Of a stretch of 64,000 nucleotides of DNA, positions 13,812 through 26,141 are shown one piece after another. Position 1 is the stretch's first letter; each line of letters opens with the position of its first letter. The stretch spans positions 1 through 64,000 of the forward strand of contig NZ_LMIW01000011.1 of the NCBI RefSeq assembly GCF_001429185.1, read 5' to 3'. The notes below the pieces were generated by a model that was given only the letters and a program-made list of their open reading frames with translations, ran no database searches and had not been told where the DNA came from. This DNA is from Terrabacter sp. Root85. Lineage in GTDB: Bacteria; Actinomycetota; Actinomycetes; Actinomycetales; Dermatophilaceae. A program made the translations under genes and the position numbers.

Positions 13812-14689
13812 CAGGGGAGCGGGAAGGGCAGCTCGAGACCGTCGAGGCTGCGTCGGCACGGGCAGGTGGCCGTCTCGTCGGGCTCGTGCGCGGGCATCTG
13901 GCCGATGGCGTCGCGCAGGATCGAGGTGAGGTGCTCGACGTTGGTCGCGAAGACGCGCAGGACCTCGTCGTGCGTGACGGCGTCGCCACCCTCGACGCCG
14001 GCGTCGTGGTCGGTGACCATGGCGATCGTCGTGAAGCACATGGCGAGCTCGCGGGCCAGGGCCGCTTCGGGCATCGTCGTCATGCCGACGATGCCGAAGC
14101 CGGCCTGCTGGTGCATGAGCGACTCGGCGCGGGAGGAGAACCGTGGCCCGTTGACGACCACGAGGGTCCCGTCCGTCACGACCTCGAGCTCCGAGAGCCG
14201 GGCCGCGGCCACCGCGACCTGACGGCCGTTGGGGCAGTAGGGATCGGCGAAACCGACGTGGACGACGGGACCCTCGGTCTCGTAGATGGTGTGGGCTCGC
14301 CCCCACGTGCGGTCGACGACCTGGTCGGGCACGACGATGGTGCCCGGCCCGTGCTCGGGCTTGAGCGAGCCGACGGCGCAGGGGGAGAGGATCTGGCGGA
14401 CGCCGGCCGCGCGCAGGGCCCAGAGGTTCGCGCGGTAGTTGACGCGGTGCGGCGCGAAGCGATGGCCCTTGCCGTGCCGCGCGACGAAGGCGACGCTGCG
14501 GCCCTCGACCTCACCGATGACGAGTGGGTCGCTCGGGCGCCCGAACGGGGTCTCGACGTCGACGGTCTCGTAGTCGTCGAGGAACTCGTAGAGGCCGGAC
14601 CCACCGATGACACCGATCTCGGCGCGCGGACCCGGAGCGGGAACTCCCGGGACGGCGGGGTCGGACACGGTCGTCTGCTCAGTCGTCAT
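13811..14689 (-). CDS. S-methyl-5'-thioadenosine phosphorylase (or related purine nucleoside phosphorylase)
   Basis: A 292-residue enzyme of the PNP/MTAP family, cleaving methylthioadenosine (or methylthioinosine) with phosphate to release the base and methylthioribose-1-phosphate for methionine salvage. Seen: IGVIGGSGLYEF (phosphate loop), RHGKGHRFAPHRVNYRAN, ILSPCAVGSL, GPRFSSRAESLM, and MTTMPEAALARELAMC followed by MVTDHDAG, the substrate segment. The last 30 residues extend past the usual family end. A TAGGCT -10 lies 6 nt before the ATG, so the gene is probably leaderless. It is first in a two-gene unit with the SAF-domain protein. Confidence 0.9.
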   Translation of the reverse strand: MTTEQTTVSDPAVPGVPAPGPRAEIGVIGGSGLYEFLDDYETVDVETPFGRPSDPLVIGEVEGRSVAFVARHGKGHRFAPHRVNYRANLWALRAAGVRQILSPCAVGSLKPEHGPGTIVVPDQVVDRTWGRAHTIYETEGPVVHVGFADPYCPNGRQVAVAAARLSELEVVTDGTLVVVNGPRFSSRAESLMHQQAGFGIVGMTTMPEAALARELAMCFTTIAMVTDHDAGVEGGDAVTHDEVLRVFATNVEHLTSILRDAIGQMPAHEPDETATCPCRRSLDGLELPFPLP

Positions 14690-14695
14690 GCGAGG

Positions 14696-14701
14696 AGCCT
14701 A
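14696..14701 (-). promoter_or_regulatory. -10 element, leaderless start of the MTA phosphorylase gene
   Basis: TAGGCT on the minus strand, 6 nt before the ATG at 14689. Confidence 0.45.
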
Positions 14702-14762
14702 GGGCGGGCACCGGGCCGGCCGGACGGCATACGCCCTCGGGTGGGGACAACGTCCCCCGGGC

Positions 14763-15152
14763 TCAGCCGGCTGTGGACGACGACCCGGGCGACGACGACC
14801 CGGACGACGACGACCCCGAGGACGTGGACGCGGTCTTCGACGGCGTCGACGTGCTCGAGCCGCTCGACGACTCGGAGGACGTCGAGGTGGACGACGATCC
14901 GCCGTCCTTCTTCTTCGTGTCACCCGAGCCCGCGCCGTCGGAAGCCGCCGGGGTCGAGGCGCTCTTGGACGCGGCGCGCGAGTCGGTCTTGTAGAAGCCC
15001 GAGCCCTTGAACGCGATGCCGACCGGGTGGATCACCTTGCGCAGGCGCGGCTCGCCGCACTCCGGGCACACCGTCAGGGAGTCGTCGGTGAACGACTGGC
15101 GGATGTCGAAGGCGTGGCCGCACTCTTGGCACGCGTAGGAGTAGGTGGGCAC
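14763..15152 (-). CDS. FmdB-family zinc ribbon protein, Ruc-like redox chaperone
   Basis: A 129-residue protein with an N-terminal zinc ribbon: MPTYSYACQECGHAFDIRQS then VCPECGEPRLRK, giving C8, C11, C29 and C32. These positions match those described for Mycobacterium tuberculosis Ruc (Rv0991c), a redox-activated holding chaperone with a disordered tail. The tail here is Ser/Gly/Thr-rich low complexity, consistent with that. The start is GTG at 15152 with a GAGG upstream. Rv0991c lies beside the 5-FTHF ligase and galU genes; in this window an antiporter and an acylase gene separate them. Chaperone function is inferred. Confidence 0.82.
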   Translation of the reverse strand: MPTYSYACQECGHAFDIRQSFTDDSLTVCPECGEPRLRKVIHPVGIAFKGSGFYKTDSRAASKSASTPAASDGAGSGDTKKKDGGSSSTSTSSESSSGSSTSTPSKTASTSSGSSSSGSSSPGSSSTAG

Positions 15153-16889: not shown

Positions 16890-19478
16890 GTGTCACGGTT
16901 GAAGCGCGCCCGTCGGATCGTCCTGCTCGTCGCCGTCCTCGTCGTCATGGCGGTGGTCGGGGTCGGGATCCTGGCGATCGGGGTGGTGCGGCAGTCGTTC
17001 CCGGAGACCTCGGGCCAGCTCGAGATCGAGGGCCTGACGAGCTCGGTGTCGGTGCACCGCGACGCCCAGGGCGTCCCCACGATCTACGCCGACAACGCGA
17101 GCGACCTCTTCCGGGCGCAGGGCTTCGTCAGCGCCCAGGACCGCTTCTTCGAGATGGACCTGCGTCGCCACGTCACGGCCGGCCGCCTCTCCGAGCTCGT
17201 CGGCAGCGCCGGCCTCGACAAGGACAAGGTCATCCGCACGATGGGCTGGCGCCGCATCGCGGAGCAGGAGCTGCCCAAGCTCGCGCCCGAGACGCGGCAG
17301 TACCTCCAGGCGTACGCCGACGGCGTCAACGCGTACATCAAGAAGGCCGAGACGCCCGAGAAGATGTCGCTCGAGTACACCGTGCTCGCCCGCCGCAACC
17401 CCGGCTACCGGGTCGAGCCGTGGACGCCCGTCGACTCGCTCTCGTGGCTCAAGGCGATGGCGTGGGACCTGCGGGGCGACTACAACGACGAGCTCGCCCG
17501 GGCCCGCCTGTCGCGCACGACGCGCTCCCTCAAGCAGATCAACCTGCTCTACCCGCCCTACCCCGTCGACCGCAACCAGCCGATCCTCTCGGAGCAGGAC
17601 TGGCAGCCGGCGTCGGCGAGCGACCAGGCGGCGAGCCCGGCGCCCGCGGCCCTCACGGCCATGCGCTCCGAGGACGGCAACGCCGCCATCGACTCGGCGC
17701 TGGCGTCGGTCAACGCGGTCCCGTCGAGCCTCGGCCGCGGCGACGGCATCGGCTCGAACTCGTGGGTCGTCTCGGGCTCGCGCACGACGACGGGCAAGCC
17801 CCTGCTCGCCAACGACCCGCACCTCGCCCTGTCGATCCCCGGCATCTGGGGTCAGGTCAACCTCCAGTGCCGCACCCTGAGCGCGGCGTGCCCCTTCCAG
17901 GTGTCGGGCTTCACCTTCTCGGGCCTGCCCGGCGTCGTCATCGGCCACAACGACAAGGTCGCCTGGGGCATGACGAACCTCGGCCCCGACGTCACGGACT
18001 TCTACCTCGAGCAGGTCTCGGGCGACGGCTACCTCCGTGACGGGCTGACCAAGCCGCTCGAGACGCGCCAGGAGGTCATCAAGGTCGCCGGCGGCGCCGA
18101 CGTGCCGCTGACCGTGCGCTCGACGGTGCACGGCCCGATCATGTCCGACGTCGTCCCGGCCATCGACGCGGCCGGCGACCGCAGCGTCGTGCGCGGCGCT
18201 CCCCAGTCCAACCGGTATGCCGTGTCGCTCGCGTGGACGGCGCTGACCCCGGGCACGACGGCCGACGCGATCTTCGCCCTCAACCGGGCCACGAACTGGT
18301 CGGACTTCCGCAAGGCCGCGGCCCTCTTCTCGGTGCCGTCGCAGAACCTCGTCTACGCCGACACGGCCGGCCACATCGGCTACCAGGCTCCCGGCAAGAT
18401 CCCGGTGCGACGCTCGGCGACGCCCGGCGCGCCCCCCGGCTTCTGGCCGTCGCCCGGCTGGGACTCGCAGTGGGACTGGAAGGGCTACGTGCCCTTCGAC
18501 GACATGCCCAACACCTTCGACCCCGCCGAGGGCTTCATCGTCACGGCCAACCAGGCCGTCACCGCGAGCCCGACGCCGTTCCTCACCTCGGAGTGGGACT
18601 ACGGCTTCCGGGCGCAGCGCATCCGCACCCTGCTCGCCGCGACCCCCAAGGTCTCGCCCGAGACGATGTCGCAGATCCAGGGCGACACCCGCAACACGTA
18701 CGCGCCGGGCCTCGTCGAGCGACTCCTCGCGGTGCAGGTCGACGACTTCACCGCGCAGGCCCAGCGACTGCTGCGCGACTGGGACGGCAACCAGCCCAAC
18801 GACAAGACGCGCGACGCGGCCTCGGCGGCGTACTACAACGCCGTGTGGAAGCACCTGCTCGAATACACCTTCGACGAGCTCCCGCCCGACATCGCGCCCG
18901 ACGGCGGCAGCCGGTGGATGGTCGTCATGGAGCAGCTGCTCAAGGACCCCAAGAACGACTGGTGGGACGACAAGACGACGCCCGGCGTCACCGAGGGCTC
19001 CGGCGAGATCCTCAAGCGCGCGCTCGTCGAGGCCCGCCTCGACCTCGCCCGCGAGCTCGGCAAGGTGCCCGCGACGTGGCGCTGGGGACGCCTGCACTCG
19101 CTCGACCTGACGCACCAGGTCATGGGCGCCGACGGCGTGCCCGAGCTCGTCCAGAACCTCTTCAACCGCGACGACATCGAGCTCGGCGGTGGCAACTCCA
19201 TCGTCAACGCCAACGCGTGGAACGCCTCGAAGCCCGGCTACGACGTCACGAGCGGCCCGTCGATGCGCATGGTCGTCGACCTCGGCAACCTCGACGCGTC
19301 GCGCTGGGTCAACTCGACCGGCCAGTCGGGGCACGCCTACGACGACCACTACTCCGACCAGGTCGACGCCTGGGTGGCCAACGAGACCTTCGTGTGGCCG
19401 TTCAGCCCGACCGCGGTGCGCGAGGCCACCGACGACGAGCTGACGCTCGTGCCGCCGACGCCGACGTCGAACCCGTAG
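16890..19478 (+). CDS. Penicillin acylase family protein (Ntn hydrolase)
   Basis: An 862-residue secreted or membrane-tethered amidohydrolase. Residues 1-30 hold a basic start and one hydrophobic segment (IVLLVAVLVVMAVVGVGILA), a signal anchor. The alpha-chain region follows (GVPTIYADNASDLFRAQGFV, QDRFFEMDLRRH). The autocatalytic cut and catalytic Ser lie in GSNSWVVSGSRTTTGKPLLA, with NDPHLAL downstream. Length matches the precursor of these alpha/beta heterodimers. They cleave acyl-amides such as quorum-sensing acyl-homoserine lactones or beta-lactams; the substrate cannot be told. GTG start with a leaderless-type -10. Confidence 0.9.
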   Translation: MSRLKRARRIVLLVAVLVVMAVVGVGILAIGVVRQSFPETSGQLEIEGLTSSVSVHRDAQGVPTIYADNASDLFRAQGFVSAQDRFFEMDLRRHVTAGRLSELVGSAGLDKDKVIRTMGWRRIAEQELPKLAPETRQYLQAYADGVNAYIKKAETPEKMSLEYTVLARRNPGYRVEPWTPVDSLSWLKAMAWDLRGDYNDELARARLSRTTRSLKQINLLYPPYPVDRNQPILSEQDWQPASASDQAASPAPAALTAMRSEDGNAAIDSALASVNAVPSSLGRGDGIGSNSWVVSGSRTTTGKPLLANDPHLALSIPGIWGQVNLQCRTLSAACPFQVSGFTFSGLPGVVIGHNDKVAWGMTNLGPDVTDFYLEQVSGDGYLRDGLTKPLETRQEVIKVAGGADVPLTVRSTVHGPIMSDVVPAIDAAGDRSVVRGAPQSNRYAVSLAWTALTPGTTADAIFALNRATNWSDFRKAAALFSVPSQNLVYADTAGHIGYQAPGKIPVRRSATPGAPPGFWPSPGWDSQWDWKGYVPFDDMPNTFDPAEGFIVTANQAVTASPTPFLTSEWDYGFRAQRIRTLLAATPKVSPETMSQIQGDTRNTYAPGLVERLLAVQVDDFTAQAQRLLRDWDGNQPNDKTRDAASAAYYNAVWKHLLEYTFDELPPDIAPDGGSRWMVVMEQLLKDPKNDWWDDKTTPGVTEGSGEILKRALVEARLDLARELGKVPATWRWGRLHSLDLTHQVMGADGVPELVQNLFNRDDIELGGGNSIVNANAWNASKPGYDVTSGPSMRMVVDLGNLDASRWVNSTGQSGHAYDDHYSDQVDAWVANETFVWPFSPTAVREATDDELTLVPPTPTSNP

Positions 19479-19569: not shown

Positions 19570-20217
19570 TCAGCGAAGCCGCACGACGCGTCCGGTCGTC
19601 GTGACGTAGCCGTCGACCGGTAGGTCGTGCGCGTCGGCCGGCAGGTCGGTGTCGCTCTGCTCGCCTTCGTGGAGCAGGGTCACGACGGGTGTGGCCGGGT
19701 CGCGGTGGAGCAGGGCCCGGTCGTAGCAGCCGCCGCCCTGGCCGAGGCGCGTGCCGTGCTCGTCGACGGAGAGCCCGGGTGTGACGACGAGGTCGCACCT
19801 GGCGAGGGCGTCGGTGCCGAGCCAGCCCTGTCGCTCGTCGGCGTCCGGTGCGTGGCCGCCGTGGCCGGGGCGGCGCACGGTCGCGTCGTCGCCCGAGGCG
19901 CCCGGGACGGCATACCTCCACTCGAGCGAGAAGTCGCCCTGCACGACGGGCACGATGACCTCGTGGCCGGCCGCGAGGAGCGCCTCGACGAGGCGGCCGG
20001 TCGGCGGCTCGTCCGGGAGGGACTCGTAGACCGCCACCCGGGACGGGTCGGGCACGAAACGGAGCACCGCCCCGGCGATCGCCGCCGCGGCGGCGTCACG
20101 CTCGTCCCGGGTCAGGCGCGACGCGATCTCGCGCCGCCGGGCCCGCGCGGCGTGACGCAGGTCACGCTTGCCCAGGCCGCTCACGGGGAGCACATTCCGC
20201 GCACTCGGGTGACGCAC
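19570..20217 (-). CDS. 5-formyltetrahydrofolate cyclo-ligase
   Basis: A roughly 215-residue cytosolic enzyme converting 5-formyl-THF and ATP to 5,10-methenyl-THF. Seen: GLGKRDLRHAARARRREIAS (N-terminal helix with the substrate Lys/Arg), VAVYESLPDEPPTGRLVEAL, DLVVTPGLSVDEHGTRLGQG and GGCYDRALL, the family's ATP-binding signature. GTG at 20217 is preferred because TACGAT (minus strand, 20227-20232) lies 9 nt upstream as a leaderless promoter; GTG at 20184 is an alternative. Divergent from the UGPase-Glp gene with overlapping promoters. Mycobacteria have the same pair (Rv0992c and galU). Confidence 0.9.
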   Translation of the reverse strand: MRHPSARNVLPVSGLGKRDLRHAARARRREIASRLTRDERDAAAAAIAGAVLRFVPDPSRVAVYESLPDEPPTGRLVEALLAAGHEVIVPVVQGDFSLEWRYAVPGASGDDATVRRPGHGGHAPDADERQGWLGTDALARCDLVVTPGLSVDEHGTRLGQGGGCYDRALLHRDPATPVVTLLHEGEQSDTDLPADAHDLPVDGYVTTTGRVVRLR

Positions 20218-20226
20218 ATGCGGCCC

Positions 20227-20236
20227 ATCGTAAGGT
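20227..20236. promoter_or_regulatory. Overlapping divergent leaderless promoters, cyclo-ligase / UGPase-Glp
   Basis: TAAGGT (20231-20236, plus strand) precedes the ATG at 20244 by 7 nt. TACGAT (20227-20232, minus strand) precedes the GTG at 20217 by 9 nt. The two -10 hexamers overlap, so the divergent genes may compete for polymerase. Confidence 0.45.
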
Positions 20237-20243
20237 GATGCCC

Positions 20244-22886
20244 ATGAGTGACCAGGGGCTCCACGCGTCCGTCGCACTGATGCGCGACCGGGGCCTCGGT
20301 CCTGAGGCGATCAGGGTGTTCGAGCACTACTACGAGCAGCTGCAGGCCGGGGCGCTCGGCACGATCCCCGAGGAGTCGATCGAGCCCCTCGGCGAGGTGC
20401 AGACCCTCCGTGAGGTCCAGGTGTCCGACGAGGAGGCGCGCGAGGCGCTGTCGCGCACCGCCGTCATCAAGCTCAACGGCGGCCTCGGCACCGGGATGGG
20501 CATGACCGGCGCCAAGTCCGCGCTCGAGGTCAAGGACGGCCTGACCTTCCTCGACATCATCGCCCTGCAAGTGCTGGCCCTGCGTGAGCGCTGGGGCGTC
20601 GAGCTCCCGCTCGTGCTCATGAACTCCTTCCGCACCTCGGAGGAGTCGCTCAAGATCCTCGCGAAGTACCCCGACCTGCCGGTCGACGGGCTGCCGCTCG
20701 ACTTCATCCAGAACGCCGAGCCCAAGCTGCGCCCCGACGACCTCATGCCGGTGCAGTGGCCCGACGACCCCGAGCTCGAGTGGTGCCCGCCGGGCCACGG
20801 CGACATCTACGTCTCGCTCGTCACGTCCGGCGTGCTCGACTCCCTGCTGGAGAAGGGGATCCGCTACGCGTTCCTCTCCAACTCCGACAACCTCGGCGCG
20901 ACGTGCGACCCCGACGTCGCGGCGTGGATGGTCGAGCACGGCCTGCCCTACGTCGCCGAGGTGTGCAAGCGCACGAAGAGCGACCGCAAGGGCGGCCACC
21001 TCGCGGTGCGCAAGTCCGACGGCCGGATCGTGCTGCGCGACACGGCGATGGTGGCCGAGGGGGAGGAGCGCTACTTCCGCGACATCAAGCGGCACAACAC
21101 CTTCAACGCCAACAACGTGTGGATCAACCTCGAGGTCCTGCGCGAGCGGATGACGGCCAAGCAGGGCGTCCTCGGCCTGCCGATCATCGTCAACCACAAG
21201 AACGTCGACCCCGCCGACCCGGGCTCGCCCGAGGTCATCCAGATGGAGTCGGCGATGGGCACGGCGATCGAGGTGTTCGAGGGCTCGGAGGCGATCCTCG
21301 TGCCGCGCACCCGCTTCCGTCCGGTCAAGACGACGAACGACCTGCTCGTCATCCGGTCCGACTTCTTCACCCTCGACGAGGGCTACCACGTCGTCGCGAC
21401 CGTCGACGGGCCCGAGCCCTACGTCGACCTCGACTCGGCCTACCGCTTCGTGTCGGGCTTCGAGCAGCGCTTCCCCAAGGGGGTGCCCTCGATGCGCGAC
21501 TGCACGAGCCTGCGCGTCATCGGTGACCCCGTCTTCGGCCGCAACGTCCGTTGCGTCGGCGAGGTGCTCATCGACGGCTACCGCCGGGTCCTCGACGACG
21601 CCGTGCTCGGCGAGCTGCCGACGCCGACGCCGGCGCCCGTCACGACACCCGGCGACGTGCGTACGGTCGACGAGCACCTCAAGGCCATCCTCTCGACGCT
21701 CGAGCCGTCCCCGACCGAGTGGACGCCGCTCACCGAGGCCCTCGGCCTCGTCGTGGCCCGCGACGTCCGGGCCAAGGTCAACCTGCCGCACTTCGACAAC
21801 TCGTCGATGGACGGGTATGCCGTCCGCGCCGAGTCGCTCGCGTCCGCCGGTGAGTCCCCGGTGCGGCTGCGCATCGTCGGCGAGGTCGCCGCGGGTGCCG
21901 ACCCGACCTTCTCGGTGGGCGTGGGGGAGGCGGCCAGGATCATGACGGGCGCCCCGATCCCCGAGGGTGCCGACGCCGTCATCGCCGTCGAGGACACCGA
22001 CGCGGCCGCAACGGGCGACGTGGAGTGCCGCGTGGCGGTCCCGCCGGGTCGCTTCATCCGTCCGCAGGGCGAGGACGTGTCGTCCGGCGAGGTCATCGTC
22101 TCGGCGGGCGAGGTCGTCGGCGCCCGCACCATCGCGCTGCTCGCGGCCTGCGGTCATGCCGAGGTCGAGGTCCACCGCCGGCCGCACGTCGTCGTGCTGT
22201 CGACCGGCGCCGAGCTCGTCGAGCCCGGAAAACCCTTGCAGCCCGGTCAGATCCACGACTCCAACTCCTCCATGCTCTGGGCGGCCGCCATCGGCGCCGG
22301 GGCGTCGGCCGAGATCCGGGCGGCGGTCGGCGACTCCGACGAGGAGCTGCTCGCCGTGCTCGACGAGGTCGTCGCCGAGGCCGACGTCGTCATCACGAGC
22401 GGCGGAGTCTCGATGGGCGCCTACGACGTCGTCAAGAGCGCCCTGCGCGGCGAGGGCATCGACTTCGTCAAGGTCGCGATGCAGCCCGGCAAGCCGCAGG
22501 GCTACGGGCTGCTGACCGGGCCGGGTGGCAAGCAGGTGCCGCTCTTCGCCCTGCCCGGCAACCCGGTGTCGTCGTTCGTGTCGTTCGAGGTCTTCGTGCG
22601 CCCGGCGCTGCGCCGGCTCATGCGCCTGACCCCCGAGAAGCGCCGGTTGCGGCCGGCCACGCTCATCTCCGGCGTCGAGTCCTTCGGCGGGCGGCGCCAG
22701 TTCGGTCGTGCCGTCGTGTCGCGGTCGGCGGAAGGCACGCTCGTCGCCGTCCCCGTGGCAGGGCAGGGCTCGCACTTCGTCGCCGACCTCTCCCGGGCCA
22801 ACGCCCTCTTCGTCGTGCCCGAGGACGTCACCGAGCTCGTCGCCGGTGAGGTCGTCGACGTCCTCGTCCTCGACAAGGAGGCGTGA
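20244..22886 (+). CDS. Fusion protein: UDP-glucose pyrophosphorylase (eukaryote-type) + MoeA/Glp molybdotransferase
   Basis: An 880-residue protein in one uninterrupted frame. Residues about 1-455 form a UDPGP-family UTP-glucose-1-phosphate uridylyltransferase: KLNGGLGTGMGMTGAKSA (from K76), SNSDNLGATCDPDVAAWM, KSDRKGGHLA, FNANNVWINLE and RFRPVKTTNDLLV. A Pro/Thr linker (GELPTPTPAPVTTPGD) follows. From V472 (a GTG that could once have been a start) comes complete MoeA/Glp: RTVDEHLKAIL, HFDNSSMDGYAV (H516 on), SGGVSMGAYD (719-728), KVAMQPGKPQGYG and LFALPGNPVSS. These are normally separate genes (galU, moeA1/glp). A leaderless-type -10 precedes the ATG. Glp in Corynebacterium also binds FtsZ. 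A lost stop codon through sequencing error is possible, but the linker argues for a real fusion. Confidence 0.9.
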   Translation: MSDQGLHASVALMRDRGLGPEAIRVFEHYYEQLQAGALGTIPEESIEPLGEVQTLREVQVSDEEAREALSRTAVIKLNGGLGTGMGMTGAKSALEVKDGLTFLDIIALQVLALRERWGVELPLVLMNSFRTSEESLKILAKYPDLPVDGLPLDFIQNAEPKLRPDDLMPVQWPDDPELEWCPPGHGDIYVSLVTSGVLDSLLEKGIRYAFLSNSDNLGATCDPDVAAWMVEHGLPYVAEVCKRTKSDRKGGHLAVRKSDGRIVLRDTAMVAEGEERYFRDIKRHNTFNANNVWINLEVLRERMTAKQGVLGLPIIVNHKNVDPADPGSPEVIQMESAMGTAIEVFEGSEAILVPRTRFRPVKTTNDLLVIRSDFFTLDEGYHVVATVDGPEPYVDLDSAYRFVSGFEQRFPKGVPSMRDCTSLRVIGDPVFGRNVRCVGEVLIDGYRRVLDDAVLGELPTPTPAPVTTPGDVRTVDEHLKAILSTLEPSPTEWTPLTEALGLVVARDVRAKVNLPHFDNSSMDGYAVRAESLASAGESPVRLRIVGEVAAGADPTFSVGVGEAARIMTGAPIPEGADAVIAVEDTDAAATGDVECRVAVPPGRFIRPQGEDVSSGEVIVSAGEVVGARTIALLAACGHAEVEVHRRPHVVVLSTGAELVEPGKPLQPGQIHDSNSSMLWAAAIGAGASAEIRAAVGDSDEELLAVLDEVVAEADVVITSGGVSMGAYDVVKSALRGEGIDFVKVAMQPGKPQGYGLLTGPGGKQVPLFALPGNPVSSFVSFEVFVRPALRRLMRLTPEKRRLRPATLISGVESFGGRRQFGRAVVSRSAEGTLVAVPVAGQGSHFVADLSRANALFVVPEDVTELVAGEVVDVLVLDKEA

Positions 22887-23461
22887 TGAGCGACCGACCG
22901 GAGGCACAGCCAGATCCGAGCGACCCGTGGGTGACGCCCCCGGAGCAGGGCGGGGCCGAGGCCTCCCCGGCAGAAGCCGCGGCGACTGCCGAGGCGCCGG
23001 GCCTCACCCACGTGCGCGCCGACGGCAGTGCCCACATGGTCGACGTGTCGGCCAAGGCCGTGACCGCCCGCGAGGCCAGCGCGGCGGGACGCGTCCTGCT
23101 CAGCGCCGACGCCGTCGCGGCGTTGCGCTCGGGGAACGTCCCCAAGGGCGACGCCCTGGCGGTCGCCCGCATCGCCGGCATCCAGGCCGTCAAGCGCACA
23201 CCCGAGCTCATCCCGCTCGCGCACCCGATCGCCGTGCACGGCGTCGAGGTCGACGTGACCGTTGCCGACGACGGCGCCGACATCACGGCGACGGTGCGCA
23301 CCGCCGACCGGACGGGCATCGAGATGGAGGCGCTGACCGCGGTGTCGGTCGCCGCGCTCGCCCTCATCGACATGGTCAAGGCCGTCGACAAGCACGGCCG
23401 GATCACCGACGTCCGCGTCACGGCGAAGTCCGGTGGCCGGTCGGGAGACTGGCATGAGTGA
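22886..23461 (+). CDS. moaC: Cyclic pyranopterin monophosphate synthase MoaC
   Basis: A 191-residue protein; the catalytic MoaC domain covers about residues 40-190, converting the MoaA product to cyclic pyranopterin monophosphate in molybdenum cofactor synthesis. Seen: HMVDVSAKAVTAREASAAGR, GNVPKGDALAVARIAGIQA, LIPLAHPIAVHGVEVDV, EMEALTAVSVAALALIDMVK and KSGGRSGDW. A 35-residue acidic, Ala-rich N-terminal extension precedes it. The ATG overlaps the stop of the fusion gene (TGATG) with a good AAGGAGG upstream, so the two are translationally coupled. Confidence 0.96.
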   Translation: MSDRPEAQPDPSDPWVTPPEQGGAEASPAEAAATAEAPGLTHVRADGSAHMVDVSAKAVTAREASAAGRVLLSADAVAALRSGNVPKGDALAVARIAGIQAVKRTPELIPLAHPIAVHGVEVDVTVADDGADITATVRTADRTGIEMEALTAVSVAALALIDMVKAVDKHGRITDVRVTAKSGGRSGDWHE

Positions 23462-23948
23462 GGGTCCGGGCGTGGGCCGCCGGGCCGTCGTCGTCACGTC
23501 CTCGACCCGAGCGGCGGCTGGCGTCTACGCCGACAGGTCCGGCCCGGTCATCGTCGAGCGGCTCCGCGCCTGGGGCTTCGAGGTGGGCGATCCGGTCGTC
23601 GTGGCCGACGGCGACGAGTTCGGCCTGGCGCTCCGCGAGGTCCTCGCGAGCGAACCGGAGCTCGTCATCACGACCGGAGGGACCGGCCTCACCCCGACCG
23701 ACGTGACCCCCGAGCAGACCGCACCCATGCTCGACCGGCTCGTGCCCGGCGTCGCCGAGGCGATCCGTGCCGCCGGCGTCGCCAAGGGGGTCCCGACGGC
23801 GATGCTCTCGCGCGGTCTCGTCGGCCTGGCCGGGCGCACCTTCGTCGCCAACCTTCCCGGATCGCGCGGGGGCGTTGCCGACGCGCTCGACGTGCTCGAG
23901 CCGGTCCTGGGCCACGCCCTCGACCAGATCCCCGGCAGTGACCACTGA
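23454..23948 (+). CDS. mog: Molybdopterin adenylyltransferase (MogA/MoaB family)
   Basis: A 164-residue protein that adenylylates molybdopterin before molybdate insertion. Seen: AVVVTSSTRAAAGVYADRSG, ITTGGTGLTPTDVTPEQTAP (the MPT-binding GGTG motif), AMLSRGLVGLAGRTFVANLP and GSRGGVADAL. Its ATG lies 8 nt inside the end of moaC. The reading MSEGPGVG is preferred over an upstream in-frame Met. With MoaC and the MoeA domain upstream, late steps of cofactor synthesis are grouped; moaA, moaD and moaE are not in the window. Confidence 0.93.
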   Translation: MSEGPGVGRRAVVVTSSTRAAAGVYADRSGPVIVERLRAWGFEVGDPVVVADGDEFGLALREVLASEPELVITTGGTGLTPTDVTPEQTAPMLDRLVPGVAEAIRAAGVAKGVPTAMLSRGLVGLAGRTFVANLPGSRGGVADALDVLEPVLGHALDQIPGSDH

Positions 23949-24017: not shown

Positions 24018-24656
24018 ATGAGGATGCCGTGGCGCCCACACCGGGACGGTCAGGCCCGCTGGCCCGTGGTCCTGCGTGATGCCTCGTCCGAGCCCGCGAT
24101 CGTGCTGCGGCCCCTGCGCCTGGACGACGAGCGTGACTGGCAGCGCGTGCGGCGCGACAACGCGGCATACGTCCAGCCGTGGGAGCCGACCCTCCCGCCG
24201 GGCTCGCCCGCGCGGACCCCGGTCTCGTTCCGGCAGTTCGTCCGCGACCTCGACACCGAGGCGCGCGCCGACCGCGCCATGCCGTGGTGCATCGAGGTCG
24301 GCGGTCGCATCGTGGGTCAGGTCCACCTCTTCGGGATCGTCCGCGCCGCGCAGCAGTCGGGTGCGGCCGGCTATTGGCTCGACGAGTCCGTCACCGGACA
24401 GGGCATCGCGACCCGCGCCCTCGCGCTGGCGGTCGACCACGCGCTCGGCGCGGGTGGGCTGCACCGGGTCGAGGTCAACATCCGGCTCGACAACGTGCCC
24501 TCGCTGCGCGTCGTCGAGCGGCTCGGCCTGCGTGACGAGGGAGTGCGCGAGCGCTTCCTCCACATCGACGGCGCGTGGCGCGACCACCGCTCCTTCGCCG
24601 TCACGACCGAGGACCTGTGCGGATCGACTCTCACGGCTCGCCTGTCACAGGTGTAA
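24018..24656 (+). CDS. rimJ: GNAT acetyltransferase (RimJ/RimL type)
   Basis: A 212-residue N-acetyltransferase of the RimJ group. Seen: IVLRPLRLDDERDWQRVRRD, YVQPWEPTLPPG, the acetyl-CoA region QSGAAGYWLDESVTGQGIAT and HRVEVNIRLDNVPSLRVVER. Related proteins acetylate ribosomal protein N-termini or other peptides; the target here is not known. It lies between the Moco genes and the GlpR-like gene, matching the galU-moeA1-rimJ-Rv0996 order of M. tuberculosis, but here moaC and mog are inserted before it. Confidence 0.88.
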   Translation: MRMPWRPHRDGQARWPVVLRDASSEPAIVLRPLRLDDERDWQRVRRDNAAYVQPWEPTLPPGSPARTPVSFRQFVRDLDTEARADRAMPWCIEVGGRIVGQVHLFGIVRAAQQSGAAGYWLDESVTGQGIATRALALAVDHALGAGGLHRVEVNIRLDNVPSLRVVERLGLRDEGVRERFLHIDGAWRDHRSFAVTTEDLCGSTLTARLSQV

Positions 24657-24726: not shown

Positions 24727-25833
24727 GTGCCAGTCAGCAGCCTCATCTTCGTCGTCATCGTGGCGATCTGGGCTGCCTATCTCGTGCAGCACTGGGCCCG
24801 CCGCCGCGAGGACGCCGCCGCGACCCGGTCGGTCGAGGGCTTCTCCGAGGCCATGCGCGTCCTCGAGAAGCGACCGGCCCTGCCGACTCCGGCACTGAGC
24901 ACCCCGCGCCCGCACTCGTATGCCGTCAAGCCCGCGAGCACCGGCCGTCCCACCGTCGACGTGAAGCGGGCCGTCCCCGCCGGCACGTCACGCCGCCACT
25001 CTCCGCTCGTCGCACGTCGATCCGACGAGCGGGTGCTTGCGAGCTCGACTGACGCATCGGGCTCCTCGTCAGATCTGAGCCAGAACGACCACGACATCGC
25101 CCCCTACTCCGCCGAGGTGGACCGCATGCCCGAGTCAGCGCGACCGACGAGCCACGCGGACCGGAGGCCGGCTCGACCCACGGCCCCTGCGCGGGTTCCG
25201 CTGGCACAGCGCCGCCTTCGCGCGGCGCTGCTCCTCGTCGCGGTCGCCTGGCTGCCGGTGTCCGTCGTGCTGACGGTGACCGACGTGCTCATGTGGATCT
25301 CCATCCCGTTCGCCGTGCTCACCGTCGCCGCCGTCCTCGTGTGGCTGCGGGCCGAGGCCCAGGCCGACCGCCTGCGCAGCAGCTCGGAGGCGGGGGACCA
25401 GCGCGCTCGAGGTGGCCGGCGAGGTCGTCGCCACAGCAGGTCCTACGACGCGCAGCACCGCGTGCCGCTCCTCTCGAGTGACGACACGCAGGTCATCCGT
25501 AGCACCGCCACGGCGGCCCCGTCGGAGGTCGTGGCGGTCTCGCACGAGTCGCAGACCGTCGTCGCCCAGCACGTCGAGCCCGGCGTCTTCGACGTCCAGG
25601 CGCCGATCACCGGTGAGGTGCCCGTCGCCGTGGCCGCCGTCGAGCAGCCGGCCGAGGGCAGCTGGAGCCCTGTTCCGGTGCCGCGCCCGACCTACTCGCT
25701 CAAGGCCAAGGCCGAGCCGCGCTACACCGAGTCCGGCATCCCGGCCGACGTCTTCGACACGCCTGAGTTCGCCGAGGAGGCCGAGGAGCTCGACGACCGG
25801 GCCCTCTTCGCCCGCCGCGCCGTCTCCCAGTAG
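24727..25833 (+). CDS. GlpR/SepX-like divisome membrane protein
   Basis: A 368-residue membrane protein. An N-terminal segment (SSLIFVVIVAIWAAYLV, residues 4-20) is followed by the family signature QHWARRREDAAATRSVEGFS and EAMRVLEKR. A disordered Pro/Ser-rich stretch leads to two more membrane segments near 167-187 and 190-210 (LLLVAVAWLPVSVVL, IPFAVLTVAAVLVW), then a long cytosolic tail. Order and topology match Streptomyces SepX and Corynebacterium GlpR, the membrane receptor of Glp at the division site. Gene order (Glp, RimJ, GlpR) also matches. Function is by family and context. Confidence 0.8.
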   Translation: MPVSSLIFVVIVAIWAAYLVQHWARRREDAAATRSVEGFSEAMRVLEKRPALPTPALSTPRPHSYAVKPASTGRPTVDVKRAVPAGTSRRHSPLVARRSDERVLASSTDASGSSSDLSQNDHDIAPYSAEVDRMPESARPTSHADRRPARPTAPARVPLAQRRLRAALLLVAVAWLPVSVVLTVTDVLMWISIPFAVLTVAAVLVWLRAEAQADRLRSSSEAGDQRARGGRRGRRHSRSYDAQHRVPLLSSDDTQVIRSTATAAPSEVVAVSHESQTVVAQHVEPGVFDVQAPITGEVPVAVAAVEQPAEGSWSPVPVPRPTYSLKAKAEPRYTESGIPADVFDTPEFAEEAEELDDRALFARRAVSQ

Positions 25834-26141
25834 GACCGTCGTTCCAGCCACACCTGGCTCGAACGCATCACCTCGCCCCACGAAACCGCGCCATGGCGCA
25901 CTCATGGGTGGCAACCGGTCCCGGACCACCACCCAACGGCGCCATGGCGCACTCTCTGATGGCGCCCGGTCCCGGACCACCACCAAACCGCGCCACGGCG
26001 CGCTTCGGATGGCCGCCGCCCCGAGGGGGAGGGCGCAGCGACGGGGCGCGTGGTGCGCAGGTGGAAGCGGGGCCACTCGAGGGTTCGAGTGGCCCCATCG
26101 GTCACGGACGTCCGTCGTTCCGGGACGGCATACGGCGCCCG
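25834..26141. repeat. Convergent-gap repeat array 2 (51-bp tandem units plus hairpin)
   Basis: No gene is seen. Tandem 51-bp units begin at 25885 and 25936, with a degenerate third at 25987-26014. Each starts with a GCGCCATGGCGC palindrome (GCGCCACGGCGC in the third), and the first two contain GGTCC-C-GGACC. Then a perfect hairpin: GGGGCCACTCGA (26069-26080), a 4-nt loop, TCGAGTGGCCCC (26085-26096). A 12-nt palindrome ACGGACGTCCGT follows at 26104-26115. The hairpin arm carries the CGAGTGGCCCC core found in array 1. Confidence 0.8.

Follow-up and report, generated by a model that had tools for sequence, protein, structure and literature searches.

A 64,000-nucleotide stretch of the genome of the soil bacterium Terrabacter sp. 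Root85 (contig NZ_LMIW01000011.1; referred to here as the window) was shown to carry a gene in which the genome's only recognisable UDP-glucose pyrophosphorylase (UGPase) is joined to MoeA, and comparison with related genomes revealed that this is a genuine, clade-conserved fusion. As judged from its sequence, and with confidence only a little above even, the locus is considered to make a single bifunctional housekeeping protein with UGPase and molybdotransferase activities. The genome assembly comprises 4.87 Mb in 15 contigs, and the elements of the fused gene within the window are as follows.

20233..20239, + strand: Shine-Dalgarno sequence AGGTGAT of the fused gene, spacing 4 before the start
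20244..22886, + strand: fused gene, 880 codons plus stop
20244..21614, + strand: UGPase part, residues 1-457, with PF01704 at 25-436; trypanosome and Leishmania UGPases are the closest solved structures
21615..21653, + strand: linker, residues 458-470, with a predicted local distance difference test score (pLDDT) under 50 and a non-synonymous divergence (dN) near the synonymous divergence (dS)
21657..21659, + strand: GTG codon 472, site of the former moeA start, from a codon comparison in 16 fused genes
21660..22871, + strand: MoeA part, residues 473-876, with active-site motifs retained (Pfam, NCBIfam and alignment)

The gene consists of one open frame of 880 codons without internal stops, running from an ATG at position 20244 to a TGA at 22884-22886. 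All four Pfam domains identified on its product, i.e. UDPGP (residues 25-436, 414.5 bits), MoeA_N (474-637), MoCF_biosynth (651-790) and MoeA_C (809-876), exceed their gathering scores, and MoeA domains I-IV are complete, with the three MoeA-derived matches above their cut-offs. A reading made from the sequence alone, which had described a full eukaryote-type UGPase, a linker and a full MoeA in one 880-codon frame, was thus borne out by both the frame and Pfam. Structure prediction using AlphaFold2 with a 35-row alignment yielded two folded parts (mean pLDDT 83.3; predicted template modelling score 0.56) connected by the 13-residue linker (458-470), for which the pLDDT was under 50; because of this template modelling score and the low-confidence linker, the relative placement of the domains is not interpretable in this model. 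Foldseek comparison of the model retrieved Leishmania UGPase for the first part, and gephyrin E, Cnx1E and MoeA for the second.

To establish the distribution of the fusion, a protein-versus-genome search was performed against a sample of 186 genomes of the family, and all counts given here rest on the matches listed. A stop-free match over nearly all 880 residues was found in 16/186 genomes, and a contig-edge fragment spanning the junction in genome G174 brought the total to 17. The fused genomes fall in six of the 53 genus codes, representing 9/9 genomes of the window's own genus and 8/8 genomes of five other genera, and the closest public copies belong to Terrabacter, Terracoccus sp. 273MFTsu3.1, Intrasporangium flavum, Humibacillus and others. 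The length of the fused protein is 876-885 amino acids, and a Shine-Dalgarno match of at least 5 nt precedes the main start in 15/16 fused genes. The sequence-only reading had proposed such a family search and had warned of separate proteins in close relatives and of a stop codon between the domains; the close relatives were not separate, and no such stop was found in the 16 genomes with a full-length frame. An assembly or frameshift artefact was considered and is ruled out by these same 16 stop-free frames.

Outside the family, no stop-free full-length match was observed among the matches listed for 396 order-level and 394 class-level genomes, these sets being samples in which some members of the family are present and for which the best matches were listed first. 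A further 29 loci that were read (20, most of which were chosen for long open frames, and nine from the class search) contained no fusion. These out-of-family searches detect only fusions resembling that of the window, and GalU-MoeA fusions were not sought. Furthermore, no description of a UGPase-MoeA fusion was found in searches of open-licence literature aimed at Glp, UGPase, fusions, and UDP-glucose and FtsZ, and the terms galU and UDP were absent from the main text, as available, of PMC11733289 and PMC10522489.

The UGPase half matches PF01704 over profile positions 3-411 of 413, with 414.5 bits against a gathering score of 22, and is 41-44% identical to the Trypanosoma brucei and Leishmania major enzymes in the fold matches. 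The segments LNGGLGTGMG, PPGHGD and PVKT align with the trypanosome and Leishmania enzymes (3gue and 2oef); LNGGLGTGMG is taken here to be the nucleotide loop and PVKT the lysine motif. PF01704 was found once in the genome, in this half of the fused protein, and scanning with the GalU model returned four weak matches (24.8-37.4 bits, the cut-off being 326.8). None of them passes, and we interpret them as proteins of the RmlA, GlgC and mannose types. A hidden second UGPase was not found by the PF01704 and GalU searches at the sensitivity used. As the only PF01704 match in a genome with no GalU above the cut-off, the UGPase half should represent the cell's UDP-glucose supply.

The MoeA half was compared in an alignment of 45 rows, from which the readout of individual sites covers 24 rows from organisms other than E. 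coli, with seven of the 16 fused rows among them. At positions that we take to form the active site of E. coli MoeA, the window protein retains D59, T100, D142, E188, D228, D259, K275, LPGNP, R350 and S371 (E. coli numbering). The six further fused rows shown have the same residues, apart from a K275R change in G041. The MoeA half therefore looks catalytically intact in its sequence. PF00384 and PF20256 matches above cut-off were found in the genome and indicate the presence of putative molybdoenzymes, PF00384 being a family that also includes the NADH dehydrogenase subunit NuoG.

A second MoeA is encoded elsewhere in the genome (C9:23876-25042; 13877-15043 in locus L185). It is present in 8/9 genomes of the genus, the ninth being 74% complete. 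This protein carries the changes D259E, K275H, N300T, R350T and S371A in 4/4 rows and sits on a branch of length 1.41. Its genomic neighbourhood includes CoxG, FdhD and MobA-like genes as well as, ~8 kb away, the gene of a large subunit of the xanthine/CO-dehydrogenase type, and the second MoeA is possibly dedicated to a molybdenum hydroxylase.

The linker was examined by codon comparison of 11 of the 16 fused genes (55 pairs). Across residues 455-471, dN was 0.60 and dS 0.73, compared with dN values of 0.10 and 0.14 in the domains. Because its dN approaches its dS, the linker sequence is close to unconstrained, suggesting that a tether is retained in frame while its sequence is not. The earlier description of a Pro/Thr-rich linker holds for the closest relatives only. 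At codon 472, where moeA formerly started, the 16 fused genes have GTG (eight genes), CTG (four), GTC (two), CTC (one) or ATC (one). Within the 20 nt before this codon, a Shine-Dalgarno match of at least 4 nt was identified in 5/16 fused genes, the window not being among them, and only two of these five have GTG, at spacings of 1 and 14. As a control, moeA starts of split relatives were scanned, and 7/10 are preceded by a match of this kind; a further three starts were not found by the script.

Genes flanking the fused gene in the window were annotated as follows.

19570..20277, - strand: divergent 5-formyltetrahydrofolate cyclo-ligase (Pfam; longest frame taken)
22886..23461, + strand: moaC, PF01967 (scanned as 22883-23461), with an in-frame ATG overlapping the TGA of the fused gene (TGATG)
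23433..23948, + strand: mogA/moaB-type gene, MoCF_biosynth
24018..24656, + strand: GNAT acetyltransferase (Pfam), presumably RimJ-like, by position
24727..25833, + strand: SepX/GlpR homologue, NF050099 (SepX_GlpR_2), 8.9e-26, 91.3 bits, below the cut-off of 150

The TGATG overlap occurs at the stop in 8/16 fused loci and suggests that translation of the fused gene may be coupled to the rest of molybdenum cofactor synthesis. The SepX/GlpR homologue contains membrane segments and low-complexity stretches, a layout that appears GlpR-like by eye. Gene order was compared in 20 family genomes (23 loci, three genomes being represented twice) that had been selected for a UGPase adjoining MoeA. The order cyclo-ligase (opposite strand), UGPase, MoeA, MoaC, MogA, GNAT and SepX/GlpR-like was observed in 22/23 loci and 19/20 genomes, the downstream SepX/GlpR matches being based on tblastn and some spanning only 51-80 amino acids. 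The exception is locus L120 of genome G102, in which moeA is broken, the first third lying beside UGPase and the rest matching ~1 Mb away (pieces near 2.12 Mb and 3.18 Mb on contig C1), which may reflect a rearrangement or an assembly join. At the Kineosphaera (L048) and Oerskovia (L046) loci, UGPase alone was seen. In another family of the class, two loci (L194 and L196) show the full order and L195 shows it from UGPase onward, where the contig ends, and L190 is without moaC, mogA and the GlpR-like gene.

Two further features of the region were observed. A penicillin amidase-family gene is located upstream (16890-19478), and most of the family loci compared have one on that side too. Just downstream of the SepX/GlpR-like gene lies a 51-nt direct repeat array (25878-26013; 2.7 copies at 82%), the core of which, with two mismatches allowed, has three matches at the array and one elsewhere in the genome.

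The split relatives point to how the fusion may have arisen. Among the matches listed, UGPase was found in 136/186 family genomes, of which 17 are fused and 119 unfused. In 47 of the unfused genomes the MoeA match adjoins UGPase on the same strand; in approximately 45 it lies elsewhere or on another contig, and approximately 27 have none among the matches listed. In view of these counts, the expectation that the two genes are adjacent but separate in most actinobacteria is too strong for this type of UGPase. In 4/13 split family loci, moeA follows in the frame of UGPase with one TGA between them, and the same was observed in 5/9 loci read from the other family of the class. Loci L189-L193 of the latter family have UGPase and moeA separated by a single in-frame TGA, and readthrough or stop loss there would yield an independent fusion. 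In a MoeA tree, which leaves out G102 (match under 250 amino acids) and the MoeA-less loci of G016, G051, Kineosphaera and Oerskovia, the fused MoeA parts form one clade (support 100/99) with the split G045 as its sister (91/90). A single origin by stop loss between operon neighbours appears to fit these sequences best.

According to the proposed mechanism, the ancestral operon would have contained UGPase followed directly by moeA, moaC, mogA, the GNAT gene and glpR/sepX. The stop between UGPase and moeA would have been lost, most likely once, in a lineage ancestral to Terrabacter, Humibacillus, Intrasporangium flavum and two further genera, and the fusion would then have been retained. The N-terminal domain would act as the cell's UDP-glucose pyrophosphorylase. 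Solved MoeA proteins dimerise; the C-terminal domain is likewise predicted to dimerise and to serve as molybdotransferase for the molybdoenzymes of the genome, so that two UGPase domains would be attached to each dimer by short, flexible tethers. Joined in this way, the two activities would be held at a 1:1 ratio and in one place, and substrate channelling would not be required.

Several observations weigh against a bifunctional protein of this kind, or against parts of its history. In the UGPase tree, the split G045 is nested, with low support, within the fused clade, which makes it possible that G045 split later or that fusion occurred twice; a tree constrained to a fused clade was not rejected (approximately unbiased test, p-AU 0.088), and one fusion, perhaps followed by one later split, would be the simplest history. 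Position 279, a Lys in wild-type E. coli MoeA, is Gln in the window MoeA, as in the E. coli K279Q mutant (according to PDB titles, E. coli MoeA K279Q and S371W had been studied); of the 24 rows shown from organisms other than E. coli, 20 have Gln at this position. D259E, one of the changes weighed against the second MoeA, recurs in the rows of Mycobacterium, Gordonia, Rhizohabitans and Blastococcus, and for this reason is by itself no sign of lost activity. The best NCBIfam match of the window MoeA is to the Glp model and not to a MoeA model, and a SepX/GlpR homologue, though under its curated cut-off, lies in the same cluster. Finally, codon 472 of the window is still GTG, so that internal initiation is possible. 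The last of these points bears on whether separate products are made, either because translation also initiates at codon 472 or because the linker, which is probably exposed in the predicted model, is cleaved. GTG survives in half of the fused genes, the window included, but the codon is GTC, CTC or ATC in 4/16 and CTG in another 4/16, and a Shine-Dalgarno match precedes the old start in only 5/16, compared with 15/16 (5 nt or more) at the main start; separate products are accordingly regarded as very improbable. A neutral fusion, in which the halves work independently and the join has no role but is kept since reversal is hard, is quite improbable. It is consistent with the near-neutral sequence and low model confidence of the linker, and one lost stop would suffice in several split loci, but the fusion was kept in 17/17 sampled genomes of six genus codes, with G045 as the only possible later split. 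This explanation also overlaps with that of a bifunctional enzyme.

The remaining alternative, in which the MoeA half would bind FtsZ and GlpR as a Glp-type scaffold and so bring UDP-glucose synthesis to the septum, is on the unlikely side but deserves closer consideration. Against the Glp model NF045515 (cut-off 475), the window scored 465.7 bits as a whole protein and 468.9 bits for the MoeA part, and three other fused copies scored 468.6, 476.4 and 470.7. Glp is the top-scoring NCBIfam model, and one of the three copies passes it (476.4; L010 of G099). The SepX/GlpR homologue in the cluster speaks for this alternative, as does FtsZ of the window genome, which ends in GDDLDVPDFLK, a tail (DDLDVPDFLK) retaining the Leu, Val, Pro and Phe contacted by Glp (PMC10522489). 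Two MoeA copies occur in 8/9 genomes of the genus, as reported for Glp-bearing species (PMC11733289), and UDP-glucose is described as a nutrient proxy that signals to FtsZ through OpgH and UgtP (PMC3723540). Conversely, the residues by which Corynebacterium glutamicum Glp is reported to touch the FtsZ tail include V338, L343, L360, M361, Y369, L370 and F414 (PMC10522489), and the corresponding columns in the window are R, I, V, S, L, V and V, in an alignment that is uncertain around a shorter loop. The limits of the FtsZ-binding loop, M361 and Y369, are thus Ser and Leu; as no other row shown has this Met and Tyr, not even those of the relatives L064 and L166, both of which exceed the Glp cut-off, their absence says little about FtsZ binding. 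The retained active site also differs from C. glutamicum Glp, which is altered in the alignment at D228, D259, K275 and G299, among others, consistent with the altered active site reported for Glp (PMC11733289). An intact site is nevertheless compatible with Glp, as L064 and L166 pass the model and retain most of these residues. Contact and active-site tests therefore separate Glp from MoeA poorly, both because other rows are without M361 and Y369 and because the sites of L064 and L166 are mostly intact. The moaC-mogA operon context argues against a divisome role. The MoeA tree has an unresolved backbone relative to C. glutamicum Glp, the row of which is very long. Among the Foldseek matches listed, target template modelling scores were 0.80-0.87 for gephyrin E and Cnx1E and 0.67-0.74 for C. 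glutamicum Glp; with E. coli MoeA at only 0.76, the nearness to gephyrin E and Cnx1E is weak evidence. Of the earlier proposal that UDP-glucose synthesis is placed at the divisome, the real fusion, the SepX/GlpR homologue in the cluster and the canonical FtsZ tail stand, whereas a divisome-type Glp identity is not established, given the retained active-site residues and the Ser and Leu at M361 and Y369. Such a placement is possible, yet is not the leading interpretation. A combination of both roles, in which the MoeA half would be an active molybdotransferase as well as a GlpR/FtsZ scaffold and the fusion would anchor the only recognisable UDP-glucose synthase at the septum, is considered improbable.

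Comparison with known systems places the fusion, read as a bifunctional protein, in context. The UGPases of Leishmania major and Trypanosoma brucei (2oef and 3gue) share the fold and motifs of the N-terminal half, but are stand-alone enzymes, whereas that of the window is fused to MoeA. C. glutamicum Glp (8bve and 8bvf; PMC10522489) resembles the window protein in its MoeA family membership, in the GlpR-type gene of the cluster and in the best NCBIfam model, but the window protein retains the active site, is without M361 and Y369, has UGPase fused to it, and is followed by moaC and mogA before the glpR-type gene. Gephyrin and Cnx1, which are MogA-MoeA fusions (PMC11733289), likewise have MoeA joined to another enzyme by a linker, although their partner MogA belongs to the same pathway and that of the window derives from sugar metabolism. 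The archaeal MoeA1-PBP fusion (PMC11733289) also combines MoeA with a second domain, which there is a C-terminal binding domain and here an N-terminal enzyme. OpgH and UgtP, which convey the UDP-glucose signal to FtsZ and are the model for a divisome role, are glucosyltransferases, whereas the window enzyme would make UDP-glucose, and homology is not expected (PMC3723540 for the signal).

The protein pairs a domain of sugar-nucleotide synthesis with one of molybdenum cofactor synthesis, pathways that are unrelated to each other. It represents a natural test of a metabolic side to the Glp-GlpR locus, as the UDP-glucose enzyme would follow the MoeA half if the latter were recruited to the septum, and a catalytic-looking MoeA beside a glpR-type gene bears on the generality of the activity loss reported for Glp. 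If true, a septum-anchored fusion would link division to nutrient state and to the supply of envelope precursors within a single protein.

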